From Pontibacillus sp. HMF3514 (GTDB lineage Bacteria > Bacillota > Bacilli > Bacillales > BH030062), in the NCBI RefSeq assembly GCF_009858175.1, contig NZ_CP047393.1:2294001-2358000 (forward strand): a DNA stretch of 64,000 nt. Reading direction: 5' to 3'. The position numbers and the translations under genes are program-made. This document shows, in pieces, positions 43,742 to 62,960 of this stretch (positions are counted from its first letter, which is position 1; every line of letters starts with the position of its first letter). The notes under the pieces are model-generated. The model had not been told where the DNA came from. It saw only the letters and a list, made by a program, of their open reading frames with translations, and did no database searches.

Positions 43742-44149
43742 TACATCAAAATTACGATGTTGAATCTTTATGTTACATAACTGAGAACAACTTGAGAGAT
43801 TGATTAGTCTGTATAGGATCGGGCTATTTTCTTTATGTAGGTTGGTGACAATGAATTTTATGAGTTATGTTGAATGACTAGAGCTTGTTTTAAAGCGCTT
43901 TCATTTTTGTTTTGAAAATAAGCCACACCTAAGCGCCCTTTCGTATGACAAAAATAAATCGTTCTATTATATTTGTGTAATATCTTTATCATAACCTTAC
44001 CGTTTAAAGGGATTTCTGTCAATCTATTTATCTGAAAATTTTGATGAATGGATGATACGTTGTGGGGATAGTCTTGTGATTTTCTAGTAGTGTGGTTGAG
44101 GTGCCGTTTTTTATAGTGGAAAGGTGTTGGGGGTAGCTCTTTTCTTGGG
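43742..44149. other. gene-free region upstream of paaA
   Basis: About 400 bases with no supported gene. It should hold the paaA promoter and the PaaX operator on its left side. Only small palindromes such as ATGTTACAT (near 43773) are visible, and I cannot assign the operator. Confidence 0.4.
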
Positions 44150-44608
44150 TTCAGGCGCTCTTCCCTCTGATTCTGGCGCTCTTTTCCCGGATTCAGGCGC
44201 TCTCTCCTGGTTTCAGGCGCTCTCCCCTGGTTTCAGGCGCTCTTTTCCCGGATTCTGGCTCTCTCTCCTCTGATTCTGGCGCTCTACCCTCTGATTCAGG
44301 CGCTCTTCCCCAGATTCAGGCGCTCTTTCACCAGATTCAGGCGCTCTTCCCTCTGATTCAGGCGCTCTTCCCTCTGATTCAGGCGCTCTATCCTCAGATC
44401 CAGGCGCTCTTTCACCAGATTCAGGCGCTCTCCCCTCTGATTCAGGCGCTCTCCCCTCTGATTCAGGCGCTCTCCCCTCTGATTCAGGCGCTCTCCCCTC
44501 TGATTCAGGCGCTCTTTCACCAGATTCAGGCGCTCTTCCCTCTGATTCAGGCGCTCTTCCCTCTGATTCAGGCGCTCTTTTCCCGGATTCTGGCGCTTCT
44601 CCCTCCAA
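44150..44608. repeat. tandem array of about 22 units of 20-21 bp
   Basis: Units begin with the almost invariant core TTCAGGCGCTC, followed by a 9-10 base variable part (TTCCCTCTGA, TCCCCTCTGA, TTTCACCAGA, TTTTCCCGGA and others). Most units are 21 bp; three are 20 bp. The unit size, mostly a multiple of three, keeps several frames open and would encode RAPESEG- or ERLNQRG-like repeats on the minus strand. I see no promoter or ribosome binding site and do not regard these as proteins. The array lies between the gltD terminator and the paaA upstream region. Confidence 0.9.
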
Positions 44609-44632
44609 TTCAGGCTTTAAACCTCATTCCAA

Positions 44633-54499: not shown

Positions 54500-54670
54500 T
54501 GTTATTATCCTCCTTAAATTCCGATTTATCTGTTGGTTAAACAAGTATTGATACTTTACAGTGAAAATATATGGTATAAAAAGGTAATTCGATAATAACT
54601 CTAAAACTCCTGCTTTGTTTGTATTCGGCATTTAATTTATGTAAGAAATGGCAGTATGTTTTTTGCATAT

Positions 54671-54731
54671 TAAAACAGACCGCAAAATAAGAGTTTTGTA
54701 TAAAACTATGCATATTTTGCGGTCTGTATAT
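54671..54731. repeat. 15-bp perfect inverted repeat left of the IS110 element
   Basis: ACAGACCGCAAAATA pairs exactly with TATTTTGCGGTCTGT. An inner AGTTTT/AAAACT stem extends the hairpin. On the minus strand it is followed by TTTTAAT, so it probably was a terminator for the kinase-like gene at 56449 before the IS separated them. Confidence 0.7.
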
Positions 54732-54790
54732 TTACTGTTACTCCAGTTTAGCGCCCTCGTATATTATTATTAGTCAGATTTGTTCTGGCT

Positions 54791-54973
54791 TTTAATCCTC
54801 ATTACCTTTTTAGGAAGGTATAATGAGGTTAAATCAGATAGAGGTTGTCGCTCTGCGCCCTTGAAGCATTGTCTTCGTGCTTAAGACTGACACCTCTTTC
54901 TTTATAGAACTATTCGTATGAGCTGGATGGTACCTAGTTGCCGTATATCGAACGAGGTTGAGTATCTATAAAG
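54791..54973 (+). ncRNA. putative IS110 bridge RNA
   Basis: Three hairpins fill the left non-coding end of the element. The 5' hairpin is 54791-54833 (TTTAA.CCTCATTA.CCTT pairs with its complement). The second is 54840-54897 (AGAGGT/ACCTCT base, inner CTTGAAGCA/TGCTTAAG). The third is 54900-54973 (CTTTATAGA/TCTATAAAG base). This order matches the IS621-type bridge RNA with target- and donor-binding loops. GCGCCCT (54855-54861) equals the left flank, and TAAG (54882-54885) complements the right flank CTTA. AGCTGG (54921-54926) equals the right end, and ACGAGG (54952-54957) complements the left end CCTCGT. Transcription is not shown. Confidence 0.65.
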
Positions 54974-55021
54974 TTAAGAGGATTCCTTACATTTGATTAA
55001 TCTTATATGGGTGGTATATCT

Positions 55022-56224
55022 ATGATTTATCTTGGTATTGATATTGGAAAGCGTCATCATGAGGCCGGACTGATCAATGATAAAGGAGATTCAATCGGCA
55101 AAACAATACGCTTTGCCAACTCGAAAAAAGGCAGCGAGAAGCTTCTTAATTTCTTGAATCAACACCAGGTGACACCCGAAGATTGTGCTTGCGGTATGGA
55201 AGCTACAGGTCATTATTGGTTATCTATCTTTTCTTTCCTTCATCAGCTAGGATTCAAAGTGACAGCTTTTAATCCTATGCAATCAGATGCCTTACGTAAT
55301 TTTTATATTCGCAAGACCAAAACAGATATAAAAGATGCCTACTTAATTGCACAAATTATTCGAATCGACTCTCCAGAAGCGACTCCTTTTATTGAAGAAG
55401 ACCTACTTCAACTCAGACACCTAGAGAGGCTACGTTATGCTTTGGTAGATCAAAGTTCAGATGTTAAGCGTAAAATCATCGCATTACTAGATCAGGTATT
55501 TCCTGAATATGAACAAGTATTTTCTGATGTTTTCGGGCTATCCTCCAAAGAAATTCTCTTAAACTACACCTTACCTGAAGATCTTTTAGAGATTGAAACA
55601 GACAAACTAGCAGATGTGCTTTACCGGTTCAGTAAAGGACGTTACGGGATTACAAGAGCTCGATGGAAAGCTGAACACTTAAAAGAAAGTGCCCAAAATT
55701 CCTTTGGAATTTCAATAGGTACAGATGCATTTAAAATGCAAATCCATCTTCTACTTGAACAGATATCTCTATTTGAAAAGCAGTTAAATCAAATCGAAAA
55801 AGAGTTGATTGAGCTCTCGAAACGTCAACATCATTATTTGACCACCATAACAGGTGTAAGTGATGTCACAGCGGCAGTCATTTTAGGTGAAATTGGTTCT
55901 GTTGAGCGCTTTGAACATCCAAAACAATTAGTTGCTTTCGCCGGCCTGGATGCTTCTGTACATCAATCTGGTGACTTTAATAGCTCGAATACGAAACTTT
56001 CCAAAAGAGGCTCTCCTTATCTAAGACGAGCCATTTGGCAAGCTGCATTTGTAGCTAGCTTTCATGATCATGCATTATCTCTTTATTATCAAAAGTTACG
56101 TGATCGTGGAAAAGCTCACGGCACTGCGGTTGGCGCTGTTGCTCGTAAACTAACACACATCATCTTTGCGATTCTAAGAGATCAAAAGCCTTATGAACCA
56201 CGCCCTCAAGTAAACGATGAGTGA
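55022..56224 (+). CDS. IS110-family transposase (bridge-RNA-guided DEDD recombinase type)
   Basis: A 400-residue recombinase. The N-terminal RuvC-like DEDD domain has the acidic residues in GIDIGKRHHEAG, GMEATGHYW and TKTDIKDAYLIAQ. A coiled-coil region lies at about residues 240-275. The C-terminal Tnp20 domain carries the serine in KRGSPYLRRAIWQAAF, with ITGVSDVTAAVILGEIGS before it. The ATG at 55022 has GGTGG eight bases upstream; another ATG five codons earlier has none. Apparently intact. Confidence 0.92.
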   Translation: MIYLGIDIGKRHHEAGLINDKGDSIGKTIRFANSKKGSEKLLNFLNQHQVTPEDCACGMEATGHYWLSIFSFLHQLGFKVTAFNPMQSDALRNFYIRKTKTDIKDAYLIAQIIRIDSPEATPFIEEDLLQLRHLERLRYALVDQSSDVKRKIIALLDQVFPEYEQVFSDVFGLSSKEILLNYTLPEDLLEIETDKLADVLYRFSKGRYGITRARWKAEHLKESAQNSFGISIGTDAFKMQIHLLLEQISLFEKQLNQIEKELIELSKRQHHYLTTITGVSDVTAAVILGEIGSVERFEHPKQLVAFAGLDASVHQSGDFNSSNTKLSKRGSPYLRRAIWQAAFVASFHDHALSLYYQKLRDRGKAHGTAVGAVARKLTHIIFAILRDQKPYEPRPQVNDE

Positions 56225-56448
56225 CAACAGCTCATGGGATTTTTAATAATAACAAGCGTGAGGTTTATTTGGCATGCCAAATTTTATTCCTTTAAACCTA
56301 AAGAAACATTGATTTAGATACTTGACTTTTTATAGCTGGTCTTATGTGGAACACTTGAATTCGAGATATCTCTATTTAGTTACTTGGCTTTATTTCATTG
56401 ATTATTACAATTTTCCAGCACTATTAACACTTCTGATTCCATATCTAA

Positions 56449-57105
56449 TTAAAACCGGTTAATTAGATAATCACCTTTTTCCATAAGAAAATTTACGTTG
56501 GAATTTTTTAAAACAACATCAAAATTTTGATGGTAAGGGTGCATAAATAACTCATATTGAATTCTACGCTCTTCATGAGATTGCCTTAAATAATTGATGT
56601 TTGTCCCTCTTTCCGAAACATCTCTAACACCTCTTCTATTTAACTCGGTATCTCCACCAGTATATAAGAAAATTTTTAAATCTAATAAATTAGGATTAAT
56701 AAATGCAACGCTCATCCCTTCTACAATATTTATTTTGTTTTGTGAAGAAATTAAAGTGCTCTCCATATAATCAGTTCCTATTGTGTAAAAATTTAAACCA
56801 TCTCTCATCATATTGATGTCTCTTTCTAATGCTTTTATATTATGAGCTGAGGGATGACAAGCCGTCATTTTATATTGATGATGCTCATTTTTATATTCAT
56901 AGTCAATAGTAGTGTACTTTCTAAGGTGAGAACCGATAATATACGGGTCGGTATTAATATAATTCACATCATTTCGCCCCAAAATCTTTTTAAGTTTATT
57001 TGAAAAAGTTGTCTTTCCTGAAGCACCATGACCCGAAATCCCAATGATTACTTTTTGTTCTTTATTGGTTAACAGATTGGCTATATCATGTATTACCTTG
57101 TCCAT
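56449..57105 (-). CDS. uridine-kinase-like P-loop protein
   Basis: A 218-residue protein of the uridine kinase/AAA group. Walker A is GISGHGASGKTT (residues 22-33), with an acidic INTDPYIIGSH stretch, VEGMSVAFINP as a Walker-B-like segment, and RRGVRDVSERG as a probable lid. It should transfer phosphate from ATP to a nucleoside or similar small molecule. GGGAGGGG precedes the ATG. It heads nothing downstream; an IS110 element now lies at its 3' side. Confidence 0.72.
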   Translation of the reverse strand: MDKVIHDIANLLTNKEQKVIIGISGHGASGKTTFSNKLKKILGRNDVNYINTDPYIIGSHLRKYTTIDYEYKNEHHQYKMTACHPSAHNIKALERDINMMRDGLNFYTIGTDYMESTLISSQNKINIVEGMSVAFINPNLLDLKIFLYTGGDTELNRRGVRDVSERGTNINYLRQSHEERRIQYELFMHPYHQNFDVVLKNSNVNFLMEKGDYLINRF

Positions 57106-57149
57106 AATTCCCCTCCCATTTTCGGCTAAAATTTACTTTCTTCATTAGA

Positions 57150-57752
57150 TTATCTTAGTTGCTTTAAGGGATCTAAGTGAGAAATATTGTTTATAAAATG
57201 AACAATTTTATTTCGCTCTACTAATTCTAAAAAACTAATACTAGTGTCCCCTAATTTAAAATAGTAATCTTTAGATATCCCCATTCCAAAAAATGAACGG
57301 AGTATGCAATTTATAACACCACCATGAGCAACTATTGCAATTCGGTTGTAATTATTAACAGAAATTATTTCTGAAAATATACTTTCTATCCTCATTCTAA
57401 ATTCAATATGTGATTCCCCCTCTCTATATCGTTCATGCAAATATTGGGGTTTGGGATATTTTTTTGCTTCTTCAAAGCTTAGTCCTGCTTGGACTCCATT
57501 ATTAAACTCCATTAATTGTTCTTCATACTCTACTGGGCAATTAACTGTTTCTGAAAGTAGTTCTCCTGTCTCACTAGCTCTTTGTAGCGTACTTGCCCAA
57601 ATAAAATCTGGTGGAAATTCTAATTTTACTTTCTTAGCCATTAAACTTACTTGTTGTCTACCTAAATCCGTTAAGGAAAAATCAGCTCTACCTTCATGAA
57701 CATTTAAAATATCAGCTTCAGATTCTCCATGTCTAATCAATAATATTTCCAT
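57150..57752 (-). CDS. histidine phosphatase family protein
   Basis: A 200-residue phosphoglycerate-mutase-like phosphatase. The catalytic LIRHGESEAD is at the N terminus and the second histidine in IVAHGGVINC near residue 145. FIWASTLQRASETGELL completes the phosphate pocket. Substrate unknown. I use the ATG at 57752 with GAGGGGG eight bases upstream. It lies in a minus-strand run with NUDIX and HIT genes. Confidence 0.82.
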   Translation of the reverse strand: MEILLIRHGESEADILNVHEGRADFSLTDLGRQQVSLMAKKVKLEFPPDFIWASTLQRASETGELLSETVNCPVEYEEQLMEFNNGVQAGLSFEEAKKYPKPQYLHERYREGESHIEFRMRIESIFSEIISVNNYNRIAIVAHGGVINCILRSFFGMGISKDYYFKLGDTSISFLELVERNKIVHFINNISHLDPLKQLR

Positions 57753-57798
57753 CTCAACAACCCCCTCATCTCTCACCATAGCCCCTTAGCTTATTAAG

Positions 57799-58260
57799 TT
57801 AATTAACATCTCCTAGATAAATGGGGGATTTTTCTTTATTAAAATGCTTAACGATATGTGTTCTTATCTCTTTAGGATATAGCCTATATTGCATCAATTC
57901 GGTGACATCCACCCATTCTATCCCTATTTGATGTTTATCAGGGTTGATAGGTTCTTTGTAATTTACATTATCCCTCAATTCACAAGTGAAATAGTATTCA
58001 ACTTGGTGAACATCATAATCAAATGTCGAGTATTCATGATTCTTTCCAATATACTCTCGTATGTGTAAGAGTTCTTCTACGTTTATATCGTATCCAACTT
58101 CTTCAATACATTCTCTTCTTAATGCATTATGTAGTGTTTCACCATGTTCTTGACCACCACCAGGACAAAGATAAAAAAACCCTTCTTTATCTTTGTTTTT
58201 TGTAAGTAACACCCTATTTCCTTTTATTATAATGCCTTTTGCAGAATTTCTAATGTTCAT
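57799..58260 (-). CDS. NUDIX hydrolase
   Basis: A 153-residue pyrophosphohydrolase. The Nudix box starts GGGQEHGETLHNALRREC and continues IEEVGYDI, with all key glutamates present. The C-terminal half reads IGIEWVDVTELMQYRLYPKE. It should cleave a nucleoside diphosphate linked to another group; the substrate is unknown. GGGGACG precedes the ATG weakly. It lies between the phosphatase and HIT genes. Confidence 0.85.
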   Translation of the reverse strand: MNIRNSAKGIIIKGNRVLLTKNKDKEGFFYLCPGGGQEHGETLHNALRRECIEEVGYDINVEELLHIREYIGKNHEYSTFDYDVHQVEYYFTCELRDNVNYKEPINPDKHQIGIEWVDVTELMQYRLYPKEIRTHIVKHFNKEKSPIYLGDVN

Positions 58261-58291
58261 TACGATCGTCCCCTTATAGTGAATTTTAAGA

Positions 58292-58777
58292 TCACTCCTG
58301 GTTAGCTAAAAGTTCTTCTATCCCCAAACGTAACTTTTCTGAATAGAAAGGACGTTCATCTGGTTCGGTATAAGATCCTTTTGTTAGATAGAGGTTGTCG
58401 TTTTCATATCTCGGGTAAACGTGAAGATGATAATGCCATACGTCTTGATTACCAGCAGGCTCATTATGTTGTCGAGTAGAAACTCCATCACACCCATATG
58501 TGTGTTTCATTGCAAACGCTGTCATTTGAGCAGCACGATGAATCTCAGCAGCCATTTCTGCTGTAAGTTCATATATATTCTCGAAATGTTCATTAGGAAC
58601 AACAAGGACATGCCCTTTGTTGTTTGGCCACCATTTGCTAGCAATAAATGCAGTTACATATTTATTCTGATAAATGATGTCTCTTTGCTTCGTTCCTTTA
58701 TTATCTTTTTCAATACCTGAAACAATACGACAAAATGGACACTCATACCCTTCAGGTTTATGAGAATATAGCTTCAT
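58292..58777 (-). CDS. HIT-family protein
   Basis: A 161-residue histidine triad protein acting on nucleotide conjugates. The triad is in WHYHLHVYPRY, with GHVLVVPNEHFENIYEL upstream. A Cys pair lies near the N terminus (YECPFC). I use the ATG at 58777 with GAGGAG eleven bases upstream; a GTG four codons earlier overlaps that site. First gene of the minus-strand run HIT, NUDIX, phosphatase, kinase. Confidence 0.82.
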   Translation of the reverse strand: MKLYSHKPEGYECPFCRIVSGIEKDNKGTKQRDIIYQNKYVTAFIASKWWPNNKGHVLVVPNEHFENIYELTAEMAAEIHRAAQMTAFAMKHTYGCDGVSTRQHNEPAGNQDVWHYHLHVYPRYENDNLYLTKGSYTEPDERPFYSEKLRLGIEELLANQE

Positions 58778-58995
58778 ATCGCAGATCACTCCTCTTTATT
58801 TTCTTCATGAAACTTACCTCCTTATTTCGATAATAAACTTACGTTCTCGTGCTACTAAAAAAACACAGTCAACAGGTGTCAGGTATTACATAAGTAACAG
58901 TTATAGTTAAAATTTTCAGAAAAAACACATTGTAATATTCTAACACAATAACAATATATTTCAATTTAATTTTATGTGATCCAAACATAATAATA

Positions 58996-59057
58996 GAGCG
59001 CACAACCTTTTCTTCCAGGTATGCGCCCTAAACATGAAGACTTGATTTCGAGATATC
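58996..59057 (-). repeat. dispersed terminator-linked repeat, copy D
   Basis: On the minus strand GATATCTCGAAATCAAGTC is followed by TTCATGTTTAGGGCGCA. A hairpin (GCGCATACCT with AGGTTGTGCGC) and T-rich sequence follow. It carries both the tail and the hairpin. It lies downstream of the gene at 59105 on the same strand and probably terminates it. Confidence 0.65.
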
Positions 59058-59104
59058 ACCATTAGGATCTTCCCTCAGCATCCGTCAGTTTACAAAAAGC
59101 CTTT

Positions 59105-59557
59105 TTATTGTTCTAAAGAGTCTTCAAAATAATGTTCTAATTTAGATGCTTCTTCAAGAAAAGAGTAAGTAATTTGCATACCGCCTTTAATATCGGTTCT
59201 TGTTACATAAATAGAATCCCCATTTACAAAAAATATCTTAATTTTATATCCCGATTTCAGTTCAATATTGATTCCCGCTTTCACCTTAGAATTTTGAGAA
59301 GTCCCATCAATCCTAGATTGATCAGCTATTTTGTTTGCGGGGTAATCATTAAACCAACTTATTATTTTGTTTAATTCTTCTTTTTGAATTATTTTCTCAT
59401 TATTATTCGCTTCCCACACCCTAGCAATATGGACTTGACTTCTTTCAATCGGTTGATGCAGTAATAAACTGTCCATAAATTCTTTGTTTTCTTTATATTG
59501 ATGCCACCATAAAAACCCTAATATGAGAGCAAAGACTACTAAAATTATTTTTTTCAC
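59105..59557 (-). CDS. membrane-anchored protein of unknown function
   Basis: A 150-residue protein with an N-terminal anchor (MKKIILVVFALILGFLWW). The extracytoplasmic part has a segment of YKIKIFFVNGDSIYVTRTD type, reminiscent of small beta-rich sensory domains, and an acidic helical end. GGAGG lies upstream of the ATG with a suitable gap. No family recognised. The region 59558-59927 holds no recognisable gene. Confidence 0.62.
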   Translation of the reverse strand: MKKIILVVFALILGFLWWHQYKENKEFMDSLLLHQPIERSQVHIARVWEANNNEKIIQKEELNKIISWFNDYPANKIADQSRIDGTSQNSKVKAGINIELKSGYKIKIFFVNGDSIYVTRTDIKGGMQITYSFLEEASKLEHYFEDSLEQ

Positions 59558-59927
59558 TTATTTCTCCCTCCTAAATTCTCCGACGGCTCCATCAAACGGT
59601 AAGATATCAACCCTTCAATTCTAGATATTACTTCCATTTTCCTTCCTTTTACATTGTAAGTATCATCACTATCCCCATTTTAAAAGGCGCTTTCACTCTG
59701 TTTATTTTGTACTTACATATTAATGAGGTACCTAATACCTGAAATTTTAAGAGGGATATTTACTTTTCTTCCACTGCCCCCCTTTTACTTCATACTCTAT
59801 AGAAGCATAACTTCACAAATCAAAATGCGCTAAACCAATGACATATATGATACAGTTACTCCATTATATTCAGAAATACTCATTTCATAAAACAGCATCC
59901 TTCTTTTAATTACTTTTTTAAATTTAA

Positions 59928-59954
59928 GGGAACGGAAATAACTTTGCTCTCGTC
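59928..59954 (+). promoter_or_regulatory. ECF-type promoter of the sigma factor gene
   Basis: GGGAAC and CGTC are separated by 17 bases, the pattern of Bacillus ECF promoters (GAAAC-type -35, CGTC -10). It lies about 30 bases before the sigma start, suggesting autoregulation. Confidence 0.6.
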
Positions 59955-59981
59955 TAACATGATGAAAGAGGAGGGAAGGAT

Positions 59982-60512
59982 ATGGAAGATGATCATACTT
60001 ATCAAGATATATTAAAAGACTTAATGGAAAAGTACGGCGATATGGTTCTCCGAGTTGCTTTTACTTACGTTAAAGAAGAGAAGCTAGCTGAGGATCTTTC
60101 ACAAGAAATTTTTATACGTTGCTATAAATCCCTTCATAACTTTGATAATCGTTCCTCTTATAAAACCTGGTTATATAGGATTACTGTGAATTATTGCAAG
60201 GATTATGTAAGAAGTTGGGCTTTTCGGAAATTAATTCCCAAGTCAATGACGAAAGTAGAGTATGAACATAACATGCGATCTGTTGCTACTGAAGTTTTAG
60301 AAAAAGAAGAAAGCGAGGAGTTATTTCATAAGGTGTTAAGGCTTTCTGTAAAGTTAAGAGAAGTTATAATCCTCTATTATTATGAGGAGTTAACGGTAGA
60401 TGAAATTTCTGATGTTCTAGATGTAAATTCTAATACTGTGAAAAGTAGACTTCATAGAGCAAGAAGAAACTTAAAGGAATACATGAAAGGAGGAATGGTC
60501 CTTGGAGAATAA
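59982..60512 (+). CDS. ECF-subfamily RNA polymerase sigma factor
   Basis: A 176-residue sigma factor with region 2 (YGDMVLRVAFTYVKEEKLAED then LSQEIFIRCYKSL) and region 4 (LRLSVKLREVIILYYYEELT then DEISDVLDVNSNTVKSRLHR). Regions 1.1 and 3 are absent, as in ECF factors. It directs RNA polymerase to a small stress regulon. GAGGGAAGG precedes the ATG. The downstream gene overlaps by 11 bases and is the likely anti-sigma factor. Confidence 0.9.
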   Translation: MEDDHTYQDILKDLMEKYGDMVLRVAFTYVKEEKLAEDLSQEIFIRCYKSLHNFDNRSSYKTWLYRITVNYCKDYVRSWAFRKLIPKSMTKVEYEHNMRSVATEVLEKEESEELFHKVLRLSVKLREVIILYYYEELTVDEISDVLDVNSNTVKSRLHRARRNLKEYMKGGMVLGE

Positions 60513-61551
60513 TTGGAAGTACCCTAAGCAAGTGAAAAAAATGAAGTTCACTGAAGAACATCAAGATAAGGTATTCTATGGCCTTAATAATCTTAATAAA
60601 AGAAAGAATAAATCTCGTAAATTACTGTATAGTTCAGTTGCTGCTATTTTCATCATACTATTTTCATTTGAGCTTTTTGTACCATACATGAGTAATGTCT
60701 TTGCCAATATTCCTCTCATTAGTCATTTTATTAAGGAAGAAGAGCAAAACAGAGAGGAAATGGAAAAAATCTTGGAGCTTGTGGTCCCTATCGTTGAAAG
60801 GAACGGCACAGACCTTAAGGATTTAAATATAATGACTGAAACAAAGGAAGTGAGTGTGAAACTAAAAGGATATTCTGGAGACTATGAAGATATAGCACAA
60901 AATATCGAGGAACATCTAGGAAATAATGGTTTTCAGGAGTACACTGTCAAAGCAATACGTTATGAAAAGGAAGAAAGTCAATCCAAGATAAGCCCCGAAG
61001 AATCAAAAGAATGGAAACAAAATATGGAGGATGCTAAAAAACTTAAAAACACTTTGAAGAAACGCTTGAAGGAAAAACGATATGAATTATTGTTCCCCGT
61101 ATCAGTTAGAATAAATGATACGGAAGGTGTGTTTGTAAACGTAACAGTGCCAGAATCAGAAACTAGAATCAAACAGTTAAAAGATATTCTTAAAAAAGAA
61201 GCAAAATCATATGAGGATAAAGTTAAGTTAGATGTTAGACAGGTACAAAAGATTGCTAGAGAACAGGAGAAACGATGGGAAAAAACAAATGCAATTAGCC
61301 ACATTGGGCGTGCTTTGATGGAAGCAGAACACTTACCTGTAATTGGTTTTGCTTATTCTTTCCATCCCTACCCACTACAAATCAAGATCAAAACATCATT
61401 GGATGCAAATGATTCTGATGCTTCAGAAATAGCTGATGAAATTCGCTCAGAAATCAATGTATTTATCCAAAGTAATGAAAAAAATAAATCTATACGTGAG
61501 GACAAATACAGGATTATTGTTTTAAGTAAGGATAAAAATGAAATAGATTAA
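60502..61551 (+). CDS. DUF4030-type membrane protein, putative anti-sigma factor
   Basis: A 349-residue protein. The cytoplasmic N terminus of about 40 residues (KYPKQVKKMKFTEEHQDKVF) is followed by one membrane helix near residues 43-62. An extracytoplasmic domain with coiled-coil charged stretches follows, with repeats resembling DUF4030 (VKLKGYSGDYEDIAQNIEEH, VFVNVTVPESETRI). It has the topology of an ECF anti-sigma factor. The start is TTG at 60502 with AAAGGAGG upstream inside the sigma gene. The anti-sigma role is inferred from linkage. Confidence 0.75.
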   Translation: MENNWKYPKQVKKMKFTEEHQDKVFYGLNNLNKRKNKSRKLLYSSVAAIFIILFSFELFVPYMSNVFANIPLISHFIKEEEQNREEMEKILELVVPIVERNGTDLKDLNIMTETKEVSVKLKGYSGDYEDIAQNIEEHLGNNGFQEYTVKAIRYEKEESQSKISPEESKEWKQNMEDAKKLKNTLKKRLKEKRYELLFPVSVRINDTEGVFVNVTVPESETRIKQLKDILKKEAKSYEDKVKLDVRQVQKIAREQEKRWEKTNAISHIGRALMEAEHLPVIGFAYSFHPYPLQIKIKTSLDANDSDASEIADEIRSEINVFIQSNEKNKSIREDKYRIIVLSKDKNEID

Positions 61552-61555
61552 AAAT

Positions 61556-61592
61556 GAAAAGTCGCATTCTTATGCGACTTTATTTTTTATAT
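61556..61592 (+). terminator. intrinsic terminator of the sigma/anti-sigma operon
   Basis: AAGTCGCAT pairs with ATGCGACTT over TCTT, followed by a T-rich stretch. Confidence 0.85.
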
Positions 61593-61723
61593 TCCAGTCG
61601 AATAGGTCTTGTATGAAATTATCTTATTAGAAGAAGACATTTTATCTTTAATAAGAGTCTTCAACAAACGCTCCCGATACTTTAAGTATTTCACAATCTT
61701 GGATACATGCAAGTTTCATCGGT

Positions 61724-61930
61724 TTATCCCTTTTCATCTTCCTCATATGCGTCATTTTGTTCTCGCCATTTAAATACTAAAATTGATAGTGGTAAGCTTG
61801 CTAGACCAGCTATCAAGGGTATCCAGCTCTCTATTATTTCTGGTCCGTGAGCAATCGCTAGCAATATGTAACTTAATACTATCCCGATTAAAAGGGAGAC
61901 GACATATTGCCCCAAAACTTTGAATTTCAT
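61724..61930 (-). CDS. small two-helix membrane protein
   Basis: A 68-residue protein with two predicted helices (VVSLLIGIVLSYILLAI and WIPLIAGLASLPLSILVF) and an acidic tail (NDAYEEDEKG). AGGAGG lies upstream of the ATG. No family recognised. Confidence 0.6.
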   Translation of the reverse strand: MKFKVLGQYVVSLLIGIVLSYILLAIAHGPEIIESWIPLIAGLASLPLSILVFKWREQNDAYEEDEKG

Positions 61931-62084
61931 TTCTGTATTCCTCCTATTTTTGTGAGTTTTGCAAATTTACTCCATAACTACTTCTTTAGTAAAGCAATCT
62001 ATTTACATTAGGGTACGGTCTTTCACAATCTCCACACATATTAGCATAAATATCAATTTATTTAGGGATGTTAACTAAAAATAT

Positions 62085-62146
62085 AGACGCTACCATTTAT
62101 TCAATGATCGCGCCCTATAGCTGAACACTCGAATTCGAGATATTCC
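62085..62146 (-). repeat. dispersed terminator-linked repeat, copy E
   Basis: On the minus strand AATATCTCGAATTCGAGTG is followed by TTCAGCTATAGGGCGCG and an imperfect hairpin ending in T-rich sequence. It is the best match for the uninterrupted IS110 target and lies downstream of the GNAT gene. Confidence 0.65.
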
Positions 62147-62192
62147 ATGTTTTGTTCTTGAACCGTAGCACCCTTTTCTTAAATAGATACCC

Positions 62193-62681: not shown

Positions 62682-62819
62682 TAACACCCCTTAAGTTATA
62701 CAACCTTTTGTTCCATAATTCTGCTTCGTTATCTTAAGTACATTTATTCAAATCTAACTCAAATTTTAACACAAATATCCAAGTGATAATTCACTTTATT
62801 TTTTCGCTCAAGACAAACA

Positions 62820-62878
62820 AAAAGGACTCTCCTTATTCCAGGAAAGTGTTCTATAAATGAATACTTGAAATTGAGATA
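62820..62878 (-). repeat. dispersed terminator-linked repeat, copy F
   Basis: On the minus strand TATCTCAATTTCAAGTATTC is followed by ATTTATAGAACAC. A hairpin (ACTTTCCT with AGGAGAGT) and five T follow. This copy has a diverged left part (AGAACAC for AGGGCGC). Confidence 0.5.
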
Positions 62879-62960
62879 AAGAAATACTATTGATTTCATA
62901 TTTATTAACACATACCGATGTCAGATAGTGCAGATACTACGATGAGGGAGGTGAATAAAA

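Follow-up and report, generated by a model that had tools for sequence, protein, structure and literature searches.

The window analysed here, a 64,000-nucleotide stretch of DNA from Pontibacillus sp. HMF3514 (C1:2294001-2358000 of the 3.98-Mb single-contig genome G000), contains an insertion sequence (IS) with a recombinase gene, a non-coding leader upstream of that gene, and flanks formed by the two parts of an interrupted repeat (Table 1). The recombinase reading frame is intact. The longest open reading frame opens at 55007 (55007-56224), and translation likely starts at the ATG at 55022, because GGGTGG lies upstream of it and many relatives match the protein from residue 6. In Pfam, the N-terminal domain matches DEDD_Tnp_IS110 (1e-41, above the cut-off) and the C-terminal domain matches PF02371, Transposase_20 (3.9e-26); the NCBIfam model NF033542, "IS110 family RNA-guided transposase", matches the frame at 2.7e-71. 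Within the 405-residue frame, D12, E65, D107 and D110, which we take to be the catalytic residues, lie in conserved motifs whose blocks align to ISCro4, and a conserved serine, S332, presumably the catalytic serine, lies within KLSKRG, aligned to RMSKAG of ISCro4. Two sequence matches to the recombinase were found in the PDB, IS621 (1.2e-29) and ISCro4 (PDB 9t56; E 5.7e-31), the latter being the best match among solved structures when the protein chain alone is compared. The non-coding ends are 249 nt on the left (up to the longest frame) and 116 nt on the right, the longer lying upstream of the gene. By sequence, the element belongs to the IS110 group and is homologous to IS621 and ISCro4, and its nearest named IS relatives come from Halobacillus, Thalassobacillus and Pontibacillus.

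Table 1. Features of the element and its flanks, in window coordinates
Feature	Position	Strand	Basis
IS110-group insertion sequence, both CT cores included	54756..56342	+	filled/empty comparison with G002
Left core dinucleotide CT	54756..54757	+	sequence and filled/empty comparison
Right core dinucleotide CT	56341..56342	+	sequence and filled/empty comparison
IS110 recombinase gene, stop included	55022..56224	+	Pfam, NCBIfam, motif positions, ISCro4 alignment
Left target TAGCGCC-CT, end of GCGCCC repeat	54749..54757	+	motif common to other left junctions (GCACC in L004)
Right target CT-TATGTGGAACACTTGAATTCGAGAT, remainder of interrupted repeat	56341..56371	+	sequence
Predicted bridge RNA	54773..55000	+	folds; start inferred from -10, 3' end approximate
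Target-binding-loop hairpin	54840..54897	+	consensus fold helices 2 and 3
Left target guide GCGCC-CT	54855..54861	+	covariation at -5..-1
Right target guide TAAG, complement of CT-TA	54882..54885	+	covariation at +1..+5
Donor-binding-loop hairpin	54900..54973	+	consensus fold helices 4-7
Left donor guide AGCTGG	54921..54926	+	38/39 elements agree, two variable positions
Right donor guide ACGAG, complement of CT-CGT	54952..54956	+	variable base agrees in 39/40 elements
-10-like TATATT, joined in circle to right-end -35	54760..54765	+	17-bp spacer, reconstructed junctions
-35-like TTGACT, right end	56322..56327	+	reconstructed junctions

Ends, copies and the empty site

The ends of the element are established by an IS-free place in G000 that is filled in the congener G002. 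The left flank plus CT of the G002 insertion equals C1:349645-349244 (402/402), the CT plus right flank equals C1:349245-348844 (402/402), and the longer stretches on either side, 15,757 bp and 9,247 bp, are 100% identical to the empty site; this filled site is assembled from two contigs, its halves lying on separate contigs as is expected where an assembly breaks at a repeat. Since CT occurs once in the empty site and twice in the filled site, the element spans 54756-56342 with a CT core, the boundaries and core that a first-pass annotation of the locus had proposed. The core of IS621 is likewise CT. A second copy in G000 (2433355-2434973) is 87% identical, the copies in G002 are every one cut at contig ends and none is seen whole, and genome G001 holds end fragments. 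Left junctions read GCGCC-CT-CGTATATT in the window and at L002, L003, L007 and L009, and GCACC-CT at L004, while right junctions read AGCTGGT-CT in the window and at L002, L005, L006 and L010; other copies therefore end at the same bases, as the left ends of L002, L003, L004, L007 and L009 and the right ends of L002, L005 and L010 attest.

The left flank of the window insertion is 94% identical over 137 bp to a repeat-bearing unit at 2438656-2438792, part of the gene arrays described below, and its right flank is an exact copy of the unit at 349 kb. A 5.8-kb inverted duplicate (99.7-100% identity) links window positions 56341-62142 and C1:343444-349245, with the IS core at one end and another repeat at the other. 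At L041 the right end is followed by CTCGTATAT, reading CT-CGTATAT where a plausible target is expected, as in a head-to-tail or circle junction.

Leader fold, putative junction promoter and four guides

The minimum-energy fold of 54773-55005 (-68.7 kcal/mol; z -3.8 relative to shuffles) consists, in order, of a 5' hairpin, another hairpin at about 54793-54831, and a helix pairing CAGAT (54835-54839) with ATTTG (54991-54995) that encloses two large looped hairpins. The 5' hairpin and the two looped hairpins had been recognized in the first-pass annotation, which missed the second hairpin and the enclosing helix. A consensus fold of 23 of the 25 left ends (alignment A1, with L070 and L072 left out) contains both looped hairpins and 38 pairs, 21 of them changed on both sides; 5' hairpins are absent from this consensus. 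In this structure 97.5% of cells are paired, a share that falls to 35-51% once it is displaced by 1-3 columns, and among 500 shuffles none equalled the observed structure on four of five measures and 68 did on the fifth (further pair types). Comparison of the left ends thus establishes a leader fold with strong covariation, and the loops fall where they had first been placed, the structure coming from our own alignment rather than from an independent published model. In an Rfam search of 54600-56450, no family reached its gathering score, and two sub-threshold matches (E 0.21 and 0.78) were taken as chance.

Joining the right end to the left end restores a putative circle-junction promoter. 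In 22 of the 22 joinable junctions (L037, L069 and L070 were impossible to join), TTGAC[AT] is followed after 17 bp by TATATT, TATGAT, TATAGT or TATAAT. The right ends of relatives read AGCTGG-T-CT or AGCTGG-CT (AGCTAG-CT in L036), and the 17-bp spacer is kept in both layouts, with or without the T that precedes the core.

In the available text on IS621, an IS110-group element of E. coli (PMC11208160, PMC11208158), the recombinase domains, the left-end bridge RNA, and the order of target loop then donor loop resemble those found here, as do the guide rule, the junction promoter and the choice of a repeat as target (PMC11208160). The RNA predicted here is longer, about 228 nt versus 177 nt, and differs from that of IS621, as judged from the paper's text rather than from an alignment, in an additional 5' hairpin and in a helix around the two loops; the target is a cassette-array repeat rather than a REP element. 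In IS621, left guides equal the top strand and right guides complement it, core included (PMC11208160).

The first-pass annotation had applied the same rule to four short matches, and all of its strings are present in the window: GCGCCCT at 54855-54861, TAAG at 54882-54885, AGCTGG at 54921-54926 and 56334-56339, ACGAGG at 54952-54957, and CCTCGT at 54755-54760. The donor-right pairing stands in shortened form: CCTCGT begins with a C that belongs to the target, which leaves 5 nt (CT-CGT with ACGAG). As had been remarked, the donor-left match ends short of the core, and the same is true of relatives with either right-end layout. Across relatives with different targets and different donor ends the rule itself holds, apart from the misses given below.

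A total of 70 relative loci were found, and 24 were used for the target-guide and promoter comparisons; L033, whose left end is missing, is out of the left-end counts, and L031, L037, L069 and L070 gave no right target. The search patterns for guides and donors were written after inspection of the sequences. GCGCCCT occurs once in the 233-nt leader, against 0.003 expected. For the five bases before the core in 25 left ends, the left target guide agrees with the target in 108/125 cells in register versus 20-49% when slid, and none of 20,000 permutations reaches this count, these and the following permutation counts not being probabilities, as related sequences are not independent. Reduced to 18 distinct target/guide pairs, agreement is 74/90 (permuted mean 40, maximum 62). 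At positions -5, -4, -2 and -1 agreement is higher than in any of 5,000 permutations and at -3 it is reached by 0.1% of them, while positions -6 to -8 are not above chance in the permutations; a signal limited to -5..-1 indicates a left target guide of about 5 nt plus the core. For the right target guide, positions +1 to +5 agree in 70/110 cells, against 15-31% when slid and with 0 of 20,000 permutations reaching that count. In 12 loci outside the first set the left target guide agrees in 47/60 cells (permuted mean 35, reached by 6 of 20,000 permutations), a Salimicrobium plasmid matching at 5/5 and an IMG/VR contig at 4/5 (L135 and L133, respectively); the ends of L134 are identical to those of L036.

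The agreement is incomplete at several loci. The window's own right target guide matches over 4 nt including the core, +3 being a mismatch; L034, L041 and L082 mismatch at +1; in L030, L040 and L042 the left target seems shifted by one base relative to the guide; and in L038 the left guide agrees at 3/5 positions. In favour of the guide model, the five right junctions of G000, G002 and G001 read CT-TATG in four cases and CT-TATA in one (L006), the window and L005 sharing one flank.

Relatives sit at targets of several kinds. Eight of the 25 (L030, L031, L036, L038, L039, L040, L042 and L072) are found at Shine-Dalgarno-like AGGAG/AGGGAG sequences, the insertion point being 12-16 nt upstream of a start codon whose open frame runs for 54-572 codons, and in four of these eight the left guide matches at 5/5. 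The left guide of L036, TCACCTC-CT, resembles what we take to be the anti-Shine-Dalgarno end of 16S rRNA. L133 also lies at a Shine-Dalgarno-like site, reading AGGAGTGATTGTAG-ATG. L032, L035 and L043 occupy a third kind of target that is neither the array repeat nor Shine-Dalgarno-like.

The ends of close relatives are almost invariant, and more distant relatives were therefore added for the donor guides (19 more loci plus L133, L135, L136 and L137), with only pattern-fitting elements counted (40 right, 39 left). The right donor occurs as CTCGT, CTGGT, CTTGT or CTAGT, the last type resting on the single locus L136, and the guide follows the variable base in 39/40 elements. The whole 5-mer agrees in 38/40, the misses being L048 and L030, where the pattern picked a hairpin instead of the true end, CTCGTAT, a pattern error kept in the count as a miss. 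The left donor occurs as AGCTGG, AGTTGG, AGTTAG or AGCTAG and its guide agrees in 38/39, L039 being the miss. No permutation of 20,000 reaches the right count, and likewise for the left. L137 appears by eye to have a left donor mismatch; its right end is off-pattern, so it stands outside the 38/39. Covariation is thus established for all four guides.

The target repeat and its arrays

The interrupted repeat recurs in the genome. The pattern GCGCCC-N(3-8)-GGAANACT has 14 matches in G000 and its reversed control none; in 269 kb (205 kb fetched plus the window) a repeat profile gives 83 matches at E 1e-3 and a looser pattern 48 places, one of which (L103) looks like chance. Among these 48, CT-TA occurs in 3 and CT-TATG in 2. 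The repeats stand on the 3' side of genes, nearly all in one array pointing the same way, and in the array stretches listed neighbouring repeats are usually separated by one gene and sometimes by more. Arrays lie at C1:331-350 kb, 1109-1127 kb, 2286-2294 kb, 2350-2376 kb and 2424-2450 kb (L095-L105), with repeats at 58989-59064, 62072-62157 and 62805-62881 in the window. The repeat, made up of a hairpin-like arm and GCGCCC-N6-GGAAGACTTGAATTCGAGAT, comes after many small genes, and units are common to several arrays and genomes. The window also contains a tandem repeat at 44136-44615 (C1:2338136-2338615) with a unit of about 21 bp, as judged from self-match offsets.

Near-identical segments occur in different arrays. 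For several pairs a boundary of the identical stretch falls where GCGCCC meets N6; for others, such as 1110913/2373618 and 338536/2371836, it falls elsewhere. Of the ends of G002 blocks matching G000 arrays, 8/17 lie within 40 bp of a repeat site; for random points the share is 2.2%. The eight include at least one (L140) that is the end of the IS itself. In L138, a contig of G002, units that come from three array regions of G000 are joined to one another. A cassette reading was rejected for several shared segments: 2288137-2289837 (= 2359351-2361050) and 2290508-2292148 (= 2378467-2380108) hold a second IS110 type, and the 1.33-kb shared copies contain two transposase-like frames. Motif ATCTTCAACTAACGCACCCGTTAG, which lies close to the repeat, was likewise rejected as the true recombination point, having only 9 matches in eight G000 stretches and none in 15 regions of other genomes.

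The second IS110 type has the core TT and inserts elsewhere in the repeat, at CTAACGCACCCG|TT|AGTG. It is found in L100, at about C1:2288.2-2289.8 and 2290.5-2292.1 kb, with more copies in L101, L102 and L105. By eye, the L105 copies are in the opposite orientation, and in their leader ACGGGTGC takes the place of GCACCCG, as though they had been redirected to the opposite strand.

No match to the integron integrase IntI (TIGR02249) exceeds the cut-off in G000. One array (L095) contains a 280-residue tyrosine recombinase (C1:337109-337951), which could itself be cargo. Of 299 genomes of the order, 16 contain full-length homologues with at least 72% identity, and 14 of these 16 carry the motif GAAGACTTGAATTCGAGAT, which is present with up to one mismatch in 38/299 (Fisher 2.6e-12, kinship ignored). 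No homologue at E 1e-60 was found in G007 (122 motif matches), G124 (31) or G267 (11), and homologues at 61-67% identity are common in motif-free genomes. In 15 regions around homologues, the repeat profile gives 15 matches in L123, 7 each in L122 and L125, 3 each in L119 and L124, 2 in L120, one weak match each in L118 and L121, and none in L126-L132. Whether the arrays are integron-like in nature is, in our judgement, evenly poised. The same even balance applies to the proposal that the repeat is the recombination site of an IntI-free, integron-like Bacillales system using a tyrosine recombinase of about 280 residues, exploited by at least two RNA-guided IS110 types, one per half-site (GCGCC|CT and CACCCG|TT).

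The probable RNA-guided insertion at what may be gene-cassette recombination sites has a counterpart in elements such as ISKpn4 and ISPst6, which are described in PMC11187229 as IS1111-family elements at attC. These have an RNA region downstream of the gene, sub-terminal inverted repeats and an integron attC target, whereas the present element is of the IS110 type, has its predicted RNA upstream of the gene and targets a different repeat.

Proposed mechanism, alternatives and meaning

We consider it very probable that this is an autonomous IS110-group element guided by an IS621-like bridge RNA to one arm of the array repeat. By analogy with IS621, the element would be excised as a circle, and the joined ends, AGCTGGT-CT-CGTATATT, would form a promoter (TTGACT, 17 bp, TATATT) from which the left end would be transcribed as the bridge RNA. 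Through GCGCC-CT and TAAG the target loop would pair with chromosomal GCGCC-CT-TA, through AGCTGG and ACGAG the donor loop would pair with the element's own joined ends, and the DEDD/serine recombinase would then exchange strands at CT. The target would be one arm of the repeat that separates genes in cassette-like arrays. The ends and core, the covarying fold, the covariation of the four guides and the promoter layout are established by the comparisons above; transcription, RNA binding, circle formation and catalysis are modelled on related systems.

Single guide matches are 4-7 nt long, a shortness that the first-pass annotation had itself pointed out and that could suggest that all four arose by chance and that the element ends elsewhere; this is contradicted by the filled/empty comparison, and with the covariation of all four guides, the constant 17-bp promoter spacer and the low expectation for GCGCCCT it is hardly credible. 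A more substantive proposal is that the recombinase reads the repeat as DNA, recognizing either the hairpin next to GCGCCC or else the palindrome-like GAATTC, with the leader RNA acting only in regulation. The target does adjoin a hairpin-like arm (by eye), and the available text of PMC11208160 reports that repetitive elements, REP among them, are frequent targets of the IS110 group and names ISPpu9 as a case in which small RNAs are presumed to modulate recombinase expression. However, eight of the 25 relatives are at Shine-Dalgarno-like sequences instead, four of them with a guide match of 5/5, and guides track targets position by position over the set as a whole; a purely DNA-read target is very unlikely because relatives whose guides differ are inserted at very dissimilar targets. 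The anatomy could also be right in an element that no longer moves, given that G000 has two copies while the stretches read contain about 48 repeats; we regard such a fossil as unlikely, since the frame is intact and the 9.2 and 15.8 kb on either side of the G002 insertion match the empty site at 100% identity, which points to recent movement.

As a probable RNA-guided IS, the element is of an already known type, and its location in the junction repeats of possibly integron-like cassette arrays is the less ordinary part. In the available text of the open-licence literature, we found no paper on the array repeat or on IS110 guides at Shine-Dalgarno sites. All four guides of the element are legible in its sequence alone, natural covariation supports each of them, and close relatives already carry several different target guides; the element may therefore serve as a test case for Gram-positive bridge recombinases. 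One close-knit IS family is found at different kinds of target, namely cassette-array repeats, Shine-Dalgarno-like sequences and a third kind. Integrons are extremely rare in Bacillota according to IntegronFinder 2.0 (PMC9024848, available text), and the target of this element leads to arrays in that phylum whose gene cassettes may be mobile.
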